A program made the position numbers and the translations under genes. The notes beneath the pieces were generated by a model. That model searched no databases, was not told the DNA's origin, and worked only from the letters and a program-made list of their open reading frames with translations. From NCBI GenBank assembly GCA_040218145.1, contig JAVJQK010000031.1, positions 124,001 to 188,000 on the forward strand: DNA of 64,000 bases, given 5' to 3'. The stretch comes from Sandaracinaceae bacterium (lineage in GTDB: Bacteria > Myxococcota_A > Polyangia > Polyangiales > Sandaracinaceae). Position 1 is the stretch's first letter; each line of letters starts with the position of its first letter. Below, in pieces: positions 21,527-29,246 of this stretch.

Positions 21527-23025
21527 TGCGACCTCCCCGCGATGGCCGCGCGGGCCTCCTCACGGTCGTCGAAGTGGATCTTCGTCGTGCCGCGGATCTG
21601 GTAGTCCTCGTGGCCCTTGCCCGCGATGAGGATCGTGTCGCCGGGGCGCGCCGCGGAGACGGCCTCGCGGATGGCGGCGCGGCGATCCTCCTCGACCCGG
21701 TAGAGGCCACGGTCGGCGCGCGCGAAGGCGACGAGGTCGTCACACGCGTCCCAGCCCTCGCCGCTCACGCCGGGCTCGATCGCGGCCAGGATCGCCATGG
21801 GATCCTCGGTCCGCGGGTTGTCGCTGGTGATGACCGCGAGGTCGGCGCCGCGCGCGACCGCGCGGCCCATCTGCGGGCGCTTGGCCGCGTCGCGATCCCC
21901 GCCGCAGCCGAACACCGCGAACAGTCGCCCCGGCGTGATGGGCCGGAGCGCCGCGAGCGCGCGCGAGAGCGCGTCCGGCGTGTGCGCGTAGTCGACCAGG
22001 ATGCGCACGTCCTCGAGCCCGTCGACGCGCTCGAGCCGGCCGGGGGCGCCCTTCGCCGCGCCGAGCGCCTTCGCCGCCTCGTCGGCCTCGAAGCCGAGGG
22101 CCACGAGCACGCCGAGCGCGAGCAGCAGGTTGTCGAGGTTGTGCGCGCCGATGAGCACCGAGCGGAGCTCGACCTCTTCTCCCAGCGCCGTCACCGTCGC
22201 TCGCATGCCGTCCCGGTCCATCGTCCAGGTACGCACCGCGACGTCGCCATCGCCCTCGCGCGACACGCGGAGGCAGCCCGGCACTTCGTCGGCCAGCTGC
22301 GCGCCGTGCGGGTCGTCGACGTTGATGACCGACGCGCCCGGAGAGAGCGCGGTGAAGAGGCGGGCCTTCGCCGCGAAGTACGCCTCCATCGTGCCGTGGT
22401 AGTCGAGGTGGTCCTGGGTGAGGTTGGTGAACGCCGCGACCGCGAAGTGGACGGCGTCCGCGCGGTGCATGCCGAGCGCGTGGCTCGAGACCTCCATCAC
22501 CAGGTGCGTCGCGCCCGCGTCCACGACCTTGCGCGCGAAGCGGGCGAGCGCGTCGCCCTCGGGCGTGGTGAACGGGGCCGGCTCACGCAGGCCGGGCCCG
22601 CGGCTCTCCACCGTGCCGAGGAGCGCGGGACGCTGACCGAGCGCGCCGAGCGCCTCGTCCACCAGCCACGCCGTCGTCGTCTTGCCGTTCGTGCCCGTGA
22701 GCCCGACCACCGACAGCTCGGCCGTCGGGTCGCCGTAGACCGCCGCCGCGAGCGCGCCGAGCGCGACCCGCGCGTTCTCCACGCGGAGCTGCGGCACGTC
22801 GGCGGGCAGCGCGAGCGTCGACTCGGCCGCCACCGCCACCGCGCCGCGCTCGACCGCGCTCGCCGCGAAGCGCGCGCCGTCAGCCTGCTGGCCGCTGATC
22901 GCCACGAAGAGATCGCCCGGCTCCACCGCGCGCGAGTCGTGCCGCACGCCGCGGACCTGCACCTCGCCGTCGCCGACGAGCTCGACCGCGAGCCCACGCT
23001 CGTGCAGCGCGCGCAGCGCGATCAT
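21523..23025 (-). CDS. murE: UDP-N-acetylmuramoyl-L-alanyl-D-glutamate--2,6-diaminopimelate ligase MurE
   Basis: MurE adds the third stem-peptide residue. The 500-residue protein has DSRAVEPGDLFVAISG, the ATP loop GTNGKTTTAW near residue 115, HLVMEVSSHALG, FTNLTQDHLDYH, and FGCGGDRDAAKRPQMG. The DNPR motif near residue 402 (TSDNPRTEDP) marks enzymes that use meso-diaminopimelate rather than lysine, so this organism should have meso-DAP peptidoglycan. The ATG overlaps the ftsI stop (ATGA). Confidence 0.97.
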   Translation of the reverse strand: MIALRALHERGLAVELVGDGEVQVRGVRHDSRAVEPGDLFVAISGQQADGARFAASAVERGAVAVAAESTLALPADVPQLRVENARVALGALAAAVYGDPTAELSVVGLTGTNGKTTTAWLVDEALGALGQRPALLGTVESRGPGLREPAPFTTPEGDALARFARKVVDAGATHLVMEVSSHALGMHRADAVHFAVAAFTNLTQDHLDYHGTMEAYFAAKARLFTALSPGASVINVDDPHGAQLADEVPGCLRVSREGDGDVAVRTWTMDRDGMRATVTALGEEVELRSVLIGAHNLDNLLLALGVLVALGFEADEAAKALGAAKGAPGRLERVDGLEDVRILVDYAHTPDALSRALAALRPITPGRLFAVFGCGGDRDAAKRPQMGRAVARGADLAVITSDNPRTEDPMAILAAIEPGVSGEGWDACDDLVAFARADRGLYRVEEDRRAAIREAVSAARPGDTILIAGKGHEDYQIRGTTKIHFDDREEARAAIAGRSQ

Positions 23026-25145
23026 GGCGTCACCTGCGCGAGGGTTCCGTCGGGGGTCGGCGTGACGGGCACGTCGGCCTCGGGGCGCAGCTCCGGTCGC
23101 TCGAGGATCACGCGCACCTCGCTGCCGCGGTCCACCACCGCGCCCGGCTGCGGGCTCTGCGCGACGACGAGGCCGCTGCCCTCGAGCTGGAAGTCGAGCC
23201 CGATGCGCCGCAGCGCGCCGAGCGAGCCGCGCGCGGTGAGCCCCGTCAGATCCGGGACCATGACCTCGCCCTCGCGGGGCTCGCGCTCGGGCACGACCGC
23301 GATCTCGACCGCGGTGAGCGTCTCGGGCTGGGCTGCGCCTTCGCCGCGCGCCGCGCGACGACGCTCACGCTCGCGCTGACGGTGCCGCCGCTCGAGCTCG
23401 GCCAGCGCCTCTCCGCCCGTGTCGGCGGGGACCCCGAGGTGGCGCAACGAGGCCTCCCCGATGCGGCGGAAGATCGGCCCGGCGACGGTGCCGCCGTAGT
23501 GATCGACCACCGGCTCGTCGATCACGACGGCGATGACGAGCGCGGGATCCTGCGCGGGGACGAAGCCCACGAAGGACGCGATGTAGACGTCCTCCTGGTA
23601 GCCCCCGCGGCGGTAGTCGGCCTTCTGCGCGGTGCCCGTCTTGCCGGCGACGAGGTAGCCGTCGATCGCGGCCTCGGGCCCCGTGCCGCCCTGGCCGGTG
23701 ACGGCGGTGAGCATGTCGGCGATCAGGCGCGCGGTGCGGCGCGGGATCACCTGCCGGCGCACGCGCGGGAGCGTCTCGCTCGTGGTCGCGCCGCGACTGT
23801 CCACCGTGCGCCGCAGGATGTGCGGGTGCATCAGCCGCCCGCCGTTCGCGATGGTGCTCATCGCGGTGGCGAGCTGCAGGGTGGTCGTGCTCATGCCCTG
23901 CCCGAAGCTGATCGTCGCCAGATCGAGGTCGTACCAGCGCGTGTGGTGGCGAAGGATGCCGCCGGTCTCACCGGGGAGCTCCACGCCCGTCGGCTCGCCG
24001 AAGCCGAAGCGCCGGAACGAGCGGAAGAGCCCGCGGCGCCCGAGGCGCATGCCGATCTTGGCCGTGCCGATGTTGCTCGAGCGCGCGAGGATCTGCGCCG
24101 GGGTCATGATGCCGAAGCGGTGACCGCCGTCGCCGATGGTGTCCTCGCCGATCTCGAGCTGGCCGTCCTCCTCGCAGTCGATGGCCTCCTCGGGGTGCAC
24201 GACGTTCGCCGCGAAGGCGGCGGCCAGCGTGAACGGCTTGACGGTCGAGCCCGGCTCGAAGCGGTCGGTGACGGCGCGGTTGCGGCGGTGCGCGACCTCG
24301 GCCCGGCCCGGCTCGTTCGGGTTGAACGTCGGGTAGTTCGCCATCGCGAGGATCTCGCCCGTGCGCGGATCCATCACCACCACGCTGCCCGCGGCGGCCT
24401 CGGCCGTGCGCACGCCCAGCGCGAGCTCGCGCTCGGTGATGTGCTGGATGGTCTTGTCGATGGTGAGGAAGACGTCGTCGCCCTGCGCGGCGCGGTCGTC
24501 GAGGAGCTGGTCGCTGAAGACCACGCGGCCGCGGCGGTCGCGCACGGCGGGGACGGGCTGCACCGAGCCGCGGAGGCGATCCTCCAGCGCGAGCTCGAGG
24601 CCCTCGATGCCGACGCCGTCGATGTTCGCGAAGCCCAGCAGGTGGCTGGCGAGCTCGCGGTTCGGGTAGAAGCGGCGCGCCTCGTCGGTCATCTGCACGC
24701 CCTCGATCCCGAGCGCGCGCACCGCGGCGGCCTCGGTGGGCGTGACCTGCCGCTCGATCCAGACGAAGTAGCGGTCGGAGCGGAGGCGCGCCGCGATGCG
24801 GTCGCGGTCGACGCCGAGCAGGTTGGCCAGGCGCGTCGCGGCGGACTCCGTGTCCACGCCCTCGGCCCGCATCAGCCGCGGGTTCGCGAAGACGCTCTCG
24901 ACGTCCACGCTCACCGCGAGCTCCGCCCCGTGGCGGTCGTAGATGGTGCCGCGCTTGGGCGCGAGGCGGATGTCCCGGAGCTGCTGCGACTCGGCCATCG
25001 CGCGCAGGGCCGGGCCGTGCTGGATGGTCAGCTCCCACGCGCGCGCGGAGACCAGCAGCGCGCCGGCGCCGACAGCGAGCGCGAGCACGACCATGCGCAC
25101 CCGCATCCAGCGGCGACGCTTCGGATCGGTCAGGAGGTCGCTCAT
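23022..25145 (-). CDS. ftsI: Septal class B penicillin-binding protein with C-terminal PASTA domain
   Basis: This 707-residue transpeptidase cross-links septal peptidoglycan with FtsW. It has a short cytoplasmic tail, one N-terminal membrane helix (about residues 17-37) and a PBP-dimerisation domain starting at LAPKRGTIYDRHGAELA. The transpeptidase domain has the SxxK box STVK near residue 300 (RFEPGSTVKPF), SxN as SSN (ARSSNIGTAK) and KTGTAQ near 500. After a charged Arg/Glu linker, a single PASTA domain (about 630-690, VMVPDLTGLTARGSLGALRRIGL) ends the protein. PASTA modules on FtsI are familiar in Gram-positives and some delta-type lineages and absent from E. coli FtsI. The ATG overlaps the ftsL stop. 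Confidence 0.95.
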   Translation of the reverse strand: MSDLLTDPKRRRWMRVRMVVLALAVGAGALLVSARAWELTIQHGPALRAMAESQQLRDIRLAPKRGTIYDRHGAELAVSVDVESVFANPRLMRAEGVDTESAATRLANLLGVDRDRIAARLRSDRYFVWIERQVTPTEAAAVRALGIEGVQMTDEARRFYPNRELASHLLGFANIDGVGIEGLELALEDRLRGSVQPVPAVRDRRGRVVFSDQLLDDRAAQGDDVFLTIDKTIQHITERELALGVRTAEAAAGSVVVMDPRTGEILAMANYPTFNPNEPGRAEVAHRRNRAVTDRFEPGSTVKPFTLAAAFAANVVHPEEAIDCEEDGQLEIGEDTIGDGGHRFGIMTPAQILARSSNIGTAKIGMRLGRRGLFRSFRRFGFGEPTGVELPGETGGILRHHTRWYDLDLATISFGQGMSTTTLQLATAMSTIANGGRLMHPHILRRTVDSRGATTSETLPRVRRQVIPRRTARLIADMLTAVTGQGGTGPEAAIDGYLVAGKTGTAQKADYRRGGYQEDVYIASFVGFVPAQDPALVIAVVIDEPVVDHYGGTVAGPIFRRIGEASLRHLGVPADTGGEALAELERRHRQRERERRRAARGEGAAQPETLTAVEIAVVPEREPREGEVMVPDLTGLTARGSLGALRRIGLDFQLEGSGLVVAQSPQPGAVVDRGSEVRVILERPELRPEADVPVTPTPDGTLAQVTP

Positions 25146-25450
25146 CGCACCCTCCCCGCCATGCGCCGCTGGCGGCGCTCGTTGCCGACCGGGATCACGC
25201 GCGCCGGCTCGGGCACGTCCATCTCGAGGCGGCCGCGCGCGATGGTCTCGATGCGCTCCGCCTGGCGCAGCGTGGCCGCCTCGATGGCGAGGAGCCGACG
25301 CTGCTCGATGAGGCGGCGCTGCTGCCGACGCGCCTGCCCGACCTCGTAGCCGAGCTGCACCGTCTGCTGCCGGAGCGCGAGGTGCGAGACGAAGGCCGCG
25401 GCGGCCGCGAGCACGGCCACGCTCCAGAGGACGAGGAAGCGCGCCTTCAT
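25142..25450 (-). CDS. ftsL: Cell division protein FtsL
   Basis: This 102-residue bitopic protein has one membrane helix (about residues 5-25) followed by a Gln/Arg-rich coiled-coil segment (RQQTVQLGYEVGQARRQQRRLIEQ), the layout of FtsL. The sequence is poorly conserved, so the call rests on size, topology and position between rsmH and ftsI. Both ends overlap neighbours by ATGA. Confidence 0.85.
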   Translation of the reverse strand: MKARFLVLWSVAVLAAAAAFVSHLALRQQTVQLGYEVGQARRQQRRLIEQRRLLAIEAATLRQAERIETIARGRLEMDVPEPARVIPVGNERRQRRMAGRVR

Positions 25451-26364
25451 GCCGCCTCCTCGCGGGGGACGCGCCGCGCCGCGCGCAGCTTCGCGCTGCG
25501 GGCCCGGGGGTTGTCGTCTCGCTCGGCGTCGCCCGCGACGACCGGCTTCTTGGTCAGCGGCGCCAGCGCGTCGTGCCCCTTGAAGAAGCGCTTCACCCGG
25601 CGGTCCTCGAGCGAGTGGAAGGAGATCAAGACCGCCACCCCGTCGTCGGCGAGCACGTCGGGGAGCGACGCGAGCAGCCGGTCGAGCTGCCCCAGCTCGT
25701 CGTTCACCGCGATGCGCAGCGCCTGGAAGGTGCGGGTCGCGGGGTCGATCTTGCCGCGTCGCCCGCCGACCGCGCGGTGCACGGCCGCCTGGAGATCGCC
25801 CGTGGTGTGAAGTTGCCCCGCGTTCGCGACCTCCTTGATCACGCGCGCGATGCGGCGCGACTTCCGCTCCTCGCCGAGCTGATAGATGACGTCCGCCAGC
25901 TCGGTCTCGGTCAGCGAGTCGATGAGCTCGGCCGCGGTCTGGCCCGTCGTCGGGTCCATGCGCATGTCGAGCGGGCCGTCCGAGCGGAAGGAGAACCCGC
26001 GCTCGGGCGCGTCCAGCTGGGGGGAGCTGACCCCGATATCGGCGATCAGCCCGTCGACCTGGGGCTCACCCACCTCAGCGAGGAGCTGGGCCACGGAGGC
26101 GAACGCGCCGTGCACGAAGGTCACCCGCGGCGCGAATTCCGAGAGGCGCTCGCGCGCGGCTTCGAGGGCCGCGGGGTCCCGATCGATGCCGATCACGCGC
26201 CCGTCCGGGGCGCTCGCCCGGAGGATGCCCTCGGTGTGGCCGCCGCCCCCGAGGGTGGCGTCGGCGTAGAGGCCGCCGGAGCGCGGCGACAGAGCTGCGA
26301 GCGTCTCGTCGAGCATGACCGTTCGGTGGTGGAACGGGGTGGTGGGGGTGCGGGCTTCCGTCAC
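25447..26364 (-). CDS. rsmH: 16S rRNA (cytosine1402-N4)-methyltransferase RsmH (MraW)
   Basis: RsmH methylates C1402 of 16S rRNA using S-adenosylmethionine. The 305-residue protein shows PFHHRTVMLDETL, the SAM-binding DATLGGGGHTEGIL, GIDRDPAAL, the family signature ADIGVSSPQLD with RGFSFRSDGPLDMRMD, and ISFHSLEDRRVKRFF near the C terminus. The start is GTG at 26364, overlapping the mraZ stop (GTGA); the frame is open further upstream but only as antisense of mraZ. Confidence 0.97.
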   Translation of the reverse strand: MTEARTPTTPFHHRTVMLDETLAALSPRSGGLYADATLGGGGHTEGILRASAPDGRVIGIDRDPAALEAARERLSEFAPRVTFVHGAFASVAQLLAEVGEPQVDGLIADIGVSSPQLDAPERGFSFRSDGPLDMRMDPTTGQTAAELIDSLTETELADVIYQLGEERKSRRIARVIKEVANAGQLHTTGDLQAAVHRAVGGRRGKIDPATRTFQALRIAVNDELGQLDRLLASLPDVLADDGVAVLISFHSLEDRRVKRFFKGHDALAPLTKKPVVAGDAERDDNPRARSAKLRAARRVPREEAA

Positions 26365-26813
26365 AGGCCGAGCTCCGCGAGACGCTGCGCCATCTCGACG
26401 CGCTGGTTCGGGTCCTCGAGCACGGTGGACCGCAGGGCGTCGAAGCGCTCCTTCGACCACAGCTCCAGGTGCCGCCCCATGCCGGCCCAGAGCGCGTTCC
26501 GCTCGAGGGTCGCGTAGTTGCGCAGGGCGGCGGGGATCAGGACGCGGCCGAGCTTGTCCATCTCGACCTCGACCGCCCCGGAGACGTAGATGCGGCGGAT
26601 CATGGCCACGCTCGGGTCGAAGCTCGGGAGCTTCGCGAGCCGCGCCTCGAAGGCCTCCCACTCGGCCATGGGGTAGGCGACCAGGCAGGGGTCGAGCCCC
26701 GTCGTCACGACGAGCTTGGACGTCTCCTCCGAGGAGAGGACCTCCCGAAAACGCGACGGAACGGACGTGCGTCCCTTACCGTCGATCGCGTGCTCGTACT
26801 GACCTCGGAACAC
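26361..26813 (-). CDS. mraZ: Transcriptional regulator MraZ
   Basis: MraZ is the first gene of dcw clusters and binds its own promoter as a ring-shaped AbrB-fold multimer. The 150-residue protein has two MraZ/AbrB half-repeats: FRGQYEHAIDGKGRTSVPSRFRE at the start (DGKGR signature) and VEVEMDKLGRVLIPAALRNYA in the middle (DKLGR). The start is GTG at 26813 with an AGGTG about 8 nt upstream. A sigma-70 promoter and three phased boxes lie directly upstream. Confidence 0.95.
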   Translation of the reverse strand: MFRGQYEHAIDGKGRTSVPSRFREVLSSEETSKLVVTTGLDPCLVAYPMAEWEAFEARLAKLPSFDPSVAMIRRIYVSGAVEVEMDKLGRVLIPAALRNYATLERNALWAGMGRHLELWSKERFDALRSTVLEDPNQRVEMAQRLAELGL

Positions 26814-26863
26814 CCGCGGACACCTGCTTCGCGGAGGGGGTGAGCGTCATCCCAGAGACGGAT

Positions 26864-26888
26864 GCCACTCCTTACCACTCCTTACCAC
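26864..26888 (-). promoter_or_regulatory. Three phased MraZ-type operator boxes
   Basis: On the minus strand three pentamers GTGGT, GTGGT, GTGGC are separated by identical 5-nt spacers (AAGGA), placing them on one helix face at 10-bp intervals. This is the architecture described for MraZ boxes in E. coli (TGGGN repeats with 5-nt spacers). The boxes lie about 50 nt upstream of the mraZ start and just downstream of the predicted transcription start, so MraZ should autoregulate the operon. Confidence 0.7.
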
Positions 26889-26896
26889 CGAGTCGG

Positions 26897-26925
26897 ACCC
26901 TACGGGGGGGTCACGGGGGTGTCAA
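26897..26925 (-). promoter_or_regulatory. Sigma-70-type promoter of the mraZ-murG operon
   Basis: A perfect -35 TTGACA (26925-26920) is followed after exactly 17 nt by TAGGGT (26902-26897), which keeps the key first T, second A and last T of the -10. The predicted start is near 26890, giving a leader of about 77 nt that contains the MraZ boxes. Confidence 0.65.
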
Positions 26926-27135
26926 CTTCATTCTGATCGGGCGGTCTAGCCTGTGTTCATAGGGGTTTCCGGGCGGTGACGGAGGGGGTGGTAAGGGGTG
27001 GATCGCCGGTGATCCACTGAGGGGTAGAGGCACCAGCTCGGGCGTTCAGGTAGGCGGGGCCTGGAGACCTCGGCCGCAATTGCGGCACGATCGTTCGTGC
27101 TCTCGTGTGGGCTCGCGGGGGTCGGGTCCAGATTC

Positions 27136-27762
27136 GAGTCCGCAGCCGCGACCGAAGCCGCGACCGAGTCCGCGACCGAGTCCGCCACCGCGACCGCAGC
27201 CGCACCCGAGTCCGCCACCGCACCCGCGACCGCCCCCGCGACCGGGTCCGAGTCCGCGACCGCAGTCGCCACCGAGTCCGCAGCCGCAACCGAGTCCGCC
27301 ACCGAGTCCGCAGCCGCGACCGCAGCCGCGACCGAGTCCGCCACCGAGTCCGCCACCGAGTCCGCAGCCGCGACCGCAGCCGCGACCGAGTCCGCCACCG
27401 AGTCCGCGACCGAGTCCGCCACCGCACCCGCGACCGAGTCCGCGACCGAGTCCGCCACCGCACCCGCGACCGAGTCCGCCACCGCACCCGCGACCGCCCC
27501 CCGCGACCGGGTCCGAGTCCGCCACCGCAGCCGCCACCGAGTCCGCAGCCGCGACCGCAGCCGCGACAGAGTCCGCGACCGAGTCCGCCACCGCACCCGC
27601 GACCGCCCTCCGCGACCGAGTCCGCGACCGCAGCCCCAACCGAGTCCGCCACCGCACCCGCGACCGCCCTCCGCGACCGAGTCCGCGGCCGCGGCCCCCG
27701 AGGCCGCCACCGCGACCGCCCCCGAGGCCCGCGGCCGCCACCGCGACCGAGCCCGTCACCGC
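27136..27762. repeat. Hexanucleotide repeat array A (GNNNCC)
   Basis: About 100 imperfect hexamers of the form GNNNCC, mainly GAGTCC, GCGACC, GCCACC, GCAGCC and GCACCC, with occasional phase slips in C runs. All frames are open on both strands and translate to monotonous dipeptides, so no gene is called. The main unit GAGTCC is the reverse complement of GGACTC in array B, which abuts it. The adjoining stretches 26926-27135 and 27763-27793 contain no gene I can support. Confidence 0.9.
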
Positions 27763-27793
27763 GTGTGCACCCCTGACGGAGCCGAGGCAGTTC

Positions 27794-28147
27794 GGATGCG
27801 GAGGCGGAAGCGGAACCAGAAGCGGATTCGGATTCGGAGGCGGACTCGGACTCGGACTCGGACTCGGACTCGGACTCGGAGGCGGATTCGGATTCGGAGA
27901 CGGATTCGGAGGCGGAGGCGGACTCGGACTCGGATTCGGATTCGGATTCGGATTCGGATTCGGAGGCGGACTCGGACTCGGACTCGGACTCGGATTCGGA
28001 GGCGGAAGCGGAAGCGGAGGCGGAGGCGGATGCGGATGCGGATGCGGATGCGGATGCGGATGCGGATGCGGATGCGGAAGCGGAAGCGAAAGCGGAAGCG
28101 GAAGCGGAAGCGAAAGCGGAAGCGGAGGCGCAGGCGGAGGCGCAGGC
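27794..28147. repeat. Hexanucleotide repeat array B (GGANNC)
   Basis: Fifty-nine hexamers in unbroken 6-nt phase, nearly all GGANNC, arranged in blocks of GGACTC, GGATTC, GGAGGC, GGATGC (eight identical copies at 28028-28075) and GGAAGC. The block structure implies slippage-driven growth. Translation gives Gly-X or Arg-X dipeptides in plus-strand frames; these are treated as non-coding. The array ends about 60 bp before the GTG of the next gene. Confidence 0.92.
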
Positions 28148-28206
28148 GGAGCAAGCGCCGTGCGCATTCCCGGGCCTCCTGACGCTGTCGCGGTAGACTC
28201 CCTGGC

Positions 28207-28539
28207 GTGGACGACCCGGTCGACGTCGCGTGGCGCGAGGTGGAGGCGGACTGGGCTTCCGAGCGAGCCCACAAGAAGTTCCTGACCCTCTGCGCGTCGC
28301 TGGACCGCCTCGCGGAGGCGGGGAAGCGCTACCGGGCGGTGAAGGACTCCGACCCGGATCGCGCGGAGGTCGCCAGCGAGCAGATCGACCGCTTGCTCGG
28401 GCTGGCGATGCAGAACCTCCAGGTGCTCAAGAGCGAGCCGAAGACGCGGAGCGGGAAGCAGGTGCTCTTCTTGATCGCGCTCGGGATCAGCGGCGCCCTG
28501 GTCGTCACCGCCGTGATGGCGATGTTGCGGATGATGTAG
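28207..28539 (+). CDS. Small tail-anchored membrane protein of unknown function
   Basis: This 110-residue protein has a soluble, helical, charged N-terminal part (EVEADWASERAHKKFLTLCASLDRLAEAGKRYRAVKDSDPDRAEV). It ends in one hydrophobic segment (VLFLIALGISGALVVTAVMAML), which suggests a tail-anchored inner-membrane protein facing the cytoplasm. I do not recognise a family. The start is GTG at 28207, the first start after the repeat array. It lies 26 bp before the MglA-like GTPase gene, so it may be its membrane partner (inference). Confidence 0.75.
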   Translation: MDDPVDVAWREVEADWASERAHKKFLTLCASLDRLAEAGKRYRAVKDSDPDRAEVASEQIDRLLGLAMQNLQVLKSEPKTRSGKQVLFLIALGISGALVVTAVMAMLRMM

Positions 28540-28565
28540 CCGGGTCGCTATCCTCCCGGCCTCGC

Positions 28566-29246
28566 ATGCAGCTGGATTTCAAGGCGCGCGAGCTGACCAT
28601 CAAGCTCGTGTATTACGGGCCGGCGCTCAGCGGGAAGACCACCAACCTGCAGGCGATCCATCGGTTGGTGAACACCGACGTCGCCGGGCGCCTGATGACG
28701 CTCGAGACCCAGGACGATCGGACGCTCTTCTTCGATCTCCTGCCGCTCTCCCTCAACGCGGGCAAAGGGCTCCAGGTCCGCGTGAAGCTCTTCACCGTGC
28801 CCGGGCAGGTCATCCACAACGCGACCCGGCGCCTCGTGCTCCAGGGGGCCGACGGCGTCGCGTTCATCGCCGACAGCCAGCGCTCCGAGACGAAGTCGAA
28901 CGCCGCGTCGTTCGTGAACCTCCGTCAGAACCTCACCGAGCAGGGCATCGAGCCCGCCGCGATGCCGCTCGTCATCCAGTTCAACAAGCGCGACCTGCCC
29001 GAGATCCGGACCGACGAGGAGATCGACGCGCTCGCCACCCGCGGCAAGGAGCCCGTCTTCAAGGCGGTGGCGCTCCGCGGCGTCGGCGTGCTCGAGACCC
29101 TGATGGGGCTGATGGAGATCACCTGGCAGCGGCTCGAGACCGAGCACTGCCTGAGCGAGAAGTTCGGCCTGACACCCGGCCCGCTCCTGGCGGAGCTCGA
29201 GCGGCACCTCGGCGTGCGCGAGGCCATCCAGCGGGTGAGCCGATGA
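28566..29246 (+). CDS. MglA-like small Ras-family GTPase
   Basis: MglA-type GTPases set cell polarity and gliding motility in myxobacteria. The 226-residue protein has the P-loop YYGPALSGKTTNLQ, the atypical G3 motif FTVPGQV with the RRLVLQGADGVAFIADSQ that follows it in MglA, and the G4 motif NKRD (IQFNKRDLPEI). The Thr in place of the usual Asp of DxxG is characteristic of MglA. The protein carries an extra C-terminal helix of about 30 residues beyond the 195-residue MglA. No mglB (roadblock) partner is adjacent; instead it overlaps the next gene, a histidine kinase (ATGA). It may be a paralogue rather than the motility MglA itself. Confidence 0.88.
   Translation: MQLDFKARELTIKLVYYGPALSGKTTNLQAIHRLVNTDVAGRLMTLETQDDRTLFFDLLPLSLNAGKGLQVRVKLFTVPGQVIHNATRRLVLQGADGVAFIADSQRSETKSNAASFVNLRQNLTEQGIEPAAMPLVIQFNKRDLPEIRTDEEIDALATRGKEPVFKAVALRGVGVLETLMGLMEITWQRLETEHCLSEKFGLTPGPLLAELERHLGVREAIQRVSR

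Follow-up and report, generated by a model that had tools for sequence, protein, structure and literature searches.

A candidate two-part MraZ operator at the mraZ promoter of a Sandaracinaceae bacterium and its relatives in the Myxococcota

The mraZ gene, its neighbours and its promoter

We analysed a 64 kb stretch of DNA, hereafter the window, from a member of the Sandaracinaceae (Myxococcota). MraZ heads the division and cell-wall (dcw) cluster in many bacteria, and the minus strand of the window carries this cluster in the order mraZ, rsmH/mraW, an ftsL-like gene and a penicillin-binding protein gene. The mraZ gene (26361..26813) begins with GTG and encodes an MraZ regulator of 150 aa, which matches PF02381 (E 3.6e-35) and TIGR00242 (126 bits against a cut-off of 98, E 1e-36). 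It is followed by rsmH/mraW, the second gene of the cluster (25447..26343; PF01795, 2.8e-97), by the ftsL-like gene (25142..25450; PF04999, 8.4e-07) and by the gene for an FtsI-like penicillin-binding protein with a PASTA domain (23022..25145; PF00905, PF03717 and PF03793). Divergent from mraZ on the plus strand, a gene of 110 aa with a hydrophobic C-terminus (28207..28539) had no match in Pfam or NCBIfam; it adjoins a GTPase-like ORF (28566-29246) with weak small_GTP and Arf matches. A search of Rfam over 26300-28600 returned no RNA element matches. Among the regions listed, the start codon of mraZ is GTG or TTG in families f1, f4 and f7 and mostly ATG in f5 and f11. The f and g labels denote family and genus groupings of our genome set, and f1 is the family of the window.

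The sequence-only reading of this DNA had proposed an mraZ promoter followed by three phased MraZ boxes, and the minus strand reads exactly as it described. A -35 hexamer TTGACA (26920..26925) is separated by a spacer of 17 nt from a -10 hexamer TAGGGT (26897..26902). Three boxes, identified by motif search and by comparison with relatives, follow on the same strand: GTGGT (26884..26888, 8 nt after the -10 hexamer), GTGGT (26874..26878) and GTGGC (26864..26868), where GTGCC is usual in the order. Together they form the stretch GTGGTaaggaGTGGTaaggaGTGGC at 26888-26864, 50 bp ahead of the mraZ start, with the spacer AAGGA between boxes 1 and 2 and again between boxes 2 and 3. Assuming that transcription starts about 7 nt past the -10 hexamer, the boxes lie at about +3 to +27, in agreement with the placement given earlier.

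We assessed how unusual this arrangement is. The pattern GTGG-N6-GTGG-N6-GTGG has a single match on both strands of the 64 kb and none in 100 dinucleotide shuffles, and a longer string, with up to 3 mismatches allowed, likewise has a single match in the window and none in the shuffles. When 2 mismatches were tolerated in three GTGGY boxes, we found 1 match against 1.53 expected. Because this relaxed version is no rarer than chance, it is the exactness of the triple that is informative. A generic sigma-70 scan requiring at least 9 of 12 matches did not call a promoter at TTGACA-N17-TAGGGT. TAGGGT is a weak -10 hexamer, and the promoter call therefore rests on conservation: TTGAC is kept in 141 of 146 relatives.

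The proximal boxes in relatives and in known systems

To follow the boxes through the order, we searched 183 genomes with the MraZ of the window and matched 162. Upstream stretches were obtained for 148 of these, and two (L125 and L135) were excluded because they lie at contig ends, leaving 146. The alignment was anchored on box 1, for which GTG was required and a bonus given for TTGAC. TTGAC lies 33-44 bp ahead of box 1 in the 141 genomes, with a mode of 40, under an anchor that favoured it. Box 1 is GTGG in all 146 genomes (the GTG being imposed by the anchor) and box 2 is GTGG in 131, so that 131 genomes have an exact pair of GTGG boxes with a 10-bp period; in the third unit, GTGC and GTGT predominate. 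Among loci from public genomes, 79 of 80 could be used (L289 is without upstream DNA), and 76 of the 79 have a three-box score of at least 10 out of 12. The boxes are thus kept upstream of mraZ in relatives, where the earlier reading had suggested looking for them, and the lack of conservation that would have counted against that reading is not seen.

One detail of that reading did not hold. It had treated T or C in place of G at the variable base as a departure from the plan, and all four bases are seen there in relatives. In the 146 order genomes, box 1 ends in G 111 times, in T 25 times, in C 5 times and in A 5 times; Pseudomonas loci have C at this fifth base and Blautia loci T, and several groups among the public-genome loci have T, C or A. 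Since G, T, C and A all occur, T or C at this position is ordinary, and the Pseudomonas and Blautia bases together with the spread across the order rule out a myxobacterial specialisation. In 8 of 10 genomes of the family, a pattern search found GTGGNAANNNGTGGNAANNNGTG once each and exclusively at mraZ, pointing to a regulon of a single operon for this long form. In family f33 (L192-L195, L197, L200 and others), the promoter-proximal operator resembles GTGGGATGAATTCCCAT; it is nearly palindromic, with a half box in inverted orientation as its second unit.

The boxes share their layout with the MraZ operator of Escherichia coli K-12, as had been claimed. There, TTGACA and the -10 hexamer TAAACT are followed after 7 nt by GTGGGAAATTGTGGGGCAAAGTGGG, the MraZ operator at Pmra (Eraso et al. 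2014, as cited in excerpts of PMC8475190 and PMC7761207). Both promoters have three boxes 10 bp apart beginning 7-8 nt past the -10 hexamer; E. coli differs in having G at all three variable positions and in lacking an inverted upstream pair. In Burkholderia cenocepacia, according to excerpts of PMC7761207, MraZ, described as AbrB-like, binds by EMSA to GTG repeats that overlap the start site of PmraBc. These repeats are one helical turn apart as in the window, but number four, and an upstream fragment from -386 to -136 was unbound. The MraZ box of the Mollicutes consists of AAAGTG[T/G] repeats (Fisunov et al. 2016, as cited in PMC8475190), likewise direct repeats with a GTG core at the mraZ promoter; the flanks differ, and the excerpted text of PMC8475190 mentions no distal inverted site. 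According to the same excerpts, E. coli MraZ represses the operon it belongs to, and in Mycoplasma genitalium the protein represses the division genes. The proximal boxes of the window are almost certainly an MraZ operator of this already known kind. From the box position and the E. coli and Mycoplasma publications, it is plausible that MraZ represses by blocking promoter clearance.

An inverted pair of boxes upstream of the promoter

The proposal of an mraZ promoter with an MraZ operator is thus strongly supported, but it described only half of the arrangement and overlooked an inverted pair of boxes 99 bp upstream. This distal pair, GTGGTAAGGGGTGG (26988..27001, plus strand), has the form GTGG-N6-GTGG and is followed by ATCG to 27005. 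It lies upstream of the promoter, 62 bp from the -35 hexamer and 99 bp from box 1, is oriented away from mraZ and shares the GTGG box and the 10-bp period with the proximal boxes. A second copy of the motif near the promoter, as expected of an auxiliary operator, is therefore present, although the two sites diverge beyond the second box. At 44 distal sites compared across the order, the fifth base of the second box is A in 22, as in GTGGATC, where the proximal consensus is GTGGCAA. This set of 44 leaves out G046, which is cut by its contig end, and G039 and G054, where the only pair is at 281 bp; G118 has an additional pair at 294 bp.

The orientation and spacing of the pair are specific. In a first batch of regions (84 of 90 used, as 5 scored below 10 for the triple and 1 was shorter than 100 bp), the exact inverted GTGG-N6-GTGG is present in 24 of 84, against 1 of 84 for the same strand. 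Alternative spacers of 3-5 and 7-12 were found in only 0 to 3 regions each, and at a PWM score of at least 8 there were 22 observed against a shuffle mean of about 1. In the order set, the exact inverted pair occurs in 46 of 146 genomes (a count that includes G039 and G054) and in 25 of 72 genera, with 9 genomes in f1, 7 in f4 and 30 in f11; all nine f1 genomes with an mraZ region have it. Same-strand pairs appeared in two rows, of which G046 is a contig-end artefact, leaving 1 genuine case. At a PWM score of at least 10, 36 inverted pairs compare with 1 same-strand pair. The exact pair is absent from 100 of the 146 genomes and is thus not essential.

We also looked for the pair outside the order. 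Among 40 other Myxococcota, which were taken from the top-scoring matches listed with several close relatives in f33 skipped and so are not a random sample, the inverted pair occurs in 20 and a same-strand pair in 4. These pairs were counted over the whole stretch of about 500 bp, and the same-strand pairs of G232 and G188 lie inside the promoter box cluster. Of the public-genome loci, four (L246-L249) were taken as Myxococcota, and only 3 of the remaining 75 have the inverted pair; the region upstream of E. coli mraZ has none. Within this sampling, the arrangement is enriched in the phylum.

Where close relatives could be compared, the distal site stands out from its surroundings. In the six genomes of genus g81 it reads CCCCACTTC, one variable base and TCCCACGG, amid diverged flanks; in the three genomes of g6, CGATCCACTTTCTACCACC is an island of identity amid diverged flanks, and in g79 and g48 the site is likewise a conserved island. 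Very probably, the inverted pair takes part in the control of mraZ as a genuine, conserved element.

Possible roles of the distal pair

The motif is closely tied to mraZ. Two strict versions of it gave 30 hits in the 183 genomes: 18 are distal inverted sites at mraZ, 9 are proximal sites at mraZ (those in G166 and G171 being assigned to mraZ by an additional check) and 3 lie elsewhere. MraZ probably binds the distal pair. An unlikely alternative partner is a different regulator of mraZ, either an activator or another regulator of the dcw cluster that reads GTGG repeats. The bases after the second distal box, often GTGGATC, are unlike the proximal ones and make another protein possible. However, the GTGG core and the exact 10-bp period are the same at both sites, and a strict motif with 27 of its 30 genome-wide hits at mraZ is ill-suited to a regulator with other targets.

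Binding of MraZ at both sites would raise the question of geometry. In most of the order relatives that have a distal pair, it lies about 68 to 164 bp upstream, and the spacers between the facing boxes cluster near 72, 86, 97, 109, 119, 130, 140, 151 and 162 bp. A phasing test on deduplicated spacers (n = 29) gave p 0.0008. With one spacer per genus (n = 24), p was 0.01 for periods of 10-11.2, 0.052 for periods of 7-15 and 0.054 for a period of exactly 10.5 bp. Helical phasing between the distal and proximal sites is therefore suggestive, and is weaker under the stricter sampling.

We lean towards a two-part autoregulatory operator for MraZ, with the distal pair as an auxiliary operator bridged to the promoter. 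In its proximal part, MraZ would occupy the three boxes, one helical turn apart across the start of mraZ and the dcw cluster, and repress its own operon. The distal part, the inverted pair of the same boxes, would act on mraZ and not on the divergent gene. Most likely, one MraZ ring, or two stacked rings, would hold both parts with the DNA bearing the -35 and -10 hexamers looped out between them, and such a loop would raise the local concentration of MraZ and tighten repression. The anatomy of the pair, its conservation, its orientation bias and its near-uniqueness to mraZ are observed, as are the lack of a distal promoter and the independence from neighbouring genes; MraZ binding at the distal site, looping and the direction of the effect are what we infer. 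We regard looping between the two sites as an evenly balanced proposition. For one cyclic ring, an inverted orientation is not the obvious geometry. The absence of such a pair in E. coli and the unbound upstream fragment of B. cenocepacia also weigh against the model.

Loop formation has precedents among repressors. LacI, GalR and lambda CI form loops by way of a further operator at a distance of tens to hundreds of bp, in a manner that depends on helical phase. The proposed second operator at mraZ is comparable; MraZ differs in being a ring-forming, AbrB-like protein, and its looping is only proposed. It is rather unlikely that MraZ binds the two sites independently, the distal pair titrating MraZ or acting on RNA polymerase from upstream with no loop. 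The modest phasing signal and a range of site distances spanning about nine helical turns would fit such independence. Two observations speak against it, an orientation bias of 46 genomes to 1 and a suggestive phasing signal; both point to a geometric constraint relative to the promoter.

A bridged operator could have wider meaning. Across the Myxococcota, MraZ may tentatively be pictured as a DNA-bridging ring that holds the direct triplet and the inverted pair on the same face of the DNA with the dcw promoter looped out, although we put this at somewhat less than even. We know of no clear reason for the large MraZ rings; a bridging ring, if true, would amount to lineage-specific dcw control and would give the ring a reason to exist. 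The distal pair also offers a natural DNA substrate for testing ring-mediated bridging, in lineages that include the large-genome myxobacteria. These observations suggest that MraZ operators can be bipartite, in which case assays of the proximal repeats alone may miss part of the switch. In the full-text literature, whose coverage leaves most subscription papers outside, we found no report of a distal or inverted MraZ site, and none is mentioned in the available excerpts of PMC8475190, PMC5138195, PMC5089854, PMC7761207 and PMC9602371.

A further possibility, which we consider improbable, is that the distal pair is an operator for the divergent 110-aa gene with the GTPase-like ORF, so that MraZ would control a bidirectional promoter region. 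The 110-aa gene is adjacent and divergent to mraZ in 36 of 42 genomes checked, and in f1 the pair is present in 9 of 9 genomes, of which 8 have the divergent gene on the same contig and one (G006) on another contig. Outside f1, however, most genomes with an adjacent divergent 110-aa gene are without the pair, and this holds for most of the large genus g22, and in the 30 f11 genomes that have the pair, the 110-aa gene is not the neighbour wherever contigs are comparable. The genes upstream of the distal site vary between genomes, although upstream-ORF searches against Pfam often gave no match and gene calls are uncertain in such high-GC DNA. In G168, the upstream gene, with a B12-binding domain, is co-directional and its stop codon touches the distal site, which leaves no divergent gene start beside the site. 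The ORF L236:192-2633 is antisense to the co-directional B12-binding gene, and codon-position conservation near the site favours the latter. When the 44 distal sites were examined on their own strand, TTGAC was not present 33-44 bp upstream of any of them, and a promoter with a gene reading away on the other strand, as a bidirectional operator would have, was not found. Neighbours, G168 and the 0 of 44 sites with TTGAC rule out a divergent-gene operator as the general explanation. A hidden promoter over the distal site was also rejected for either strand, as promoter scores equal those of shuffles. The distal site probably serves mraZ itself, and the 110-aa gene is probably not its target.

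Several families of the order conserve the 110-aa gene next to mraZ in divergent orientation. The gene lies 1394 bp from mraZ in the window and 240-604 bp from it in 35 other genomes, and the gap in the window holds, at 27135-28150, degenerate simple repeats extending over about 1 kb, with periods of 12, 24 and 42 and then of 6 and 18. In family f3 (G011-G023), a detectable MraZ was found in 0 of 13 genomes and the 110-aa gene in 12 of 13; MraZ looks to have been lost there.

It is scarcely credible that the inverted pair is a G-rich coincidence and that the proximal boxes alone are of consequence. Many genomes of the order do lack the exact pair, and the window has 9 matches to GTGG-N6-GTGG, three of them at the mraZ promoter, where 1.7 are expected. 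Orientation and spacer specificity, however, far exceed shuffles, and together with the conserved islands amid diverged flanks they contradict coincidence when all the genomes are taken together.

Between the distal site and the promoter, TACATAG is identical in the six g81 genomes (G172-G177); in most of them its context is CCTACATAGG, which is palindrome-like.
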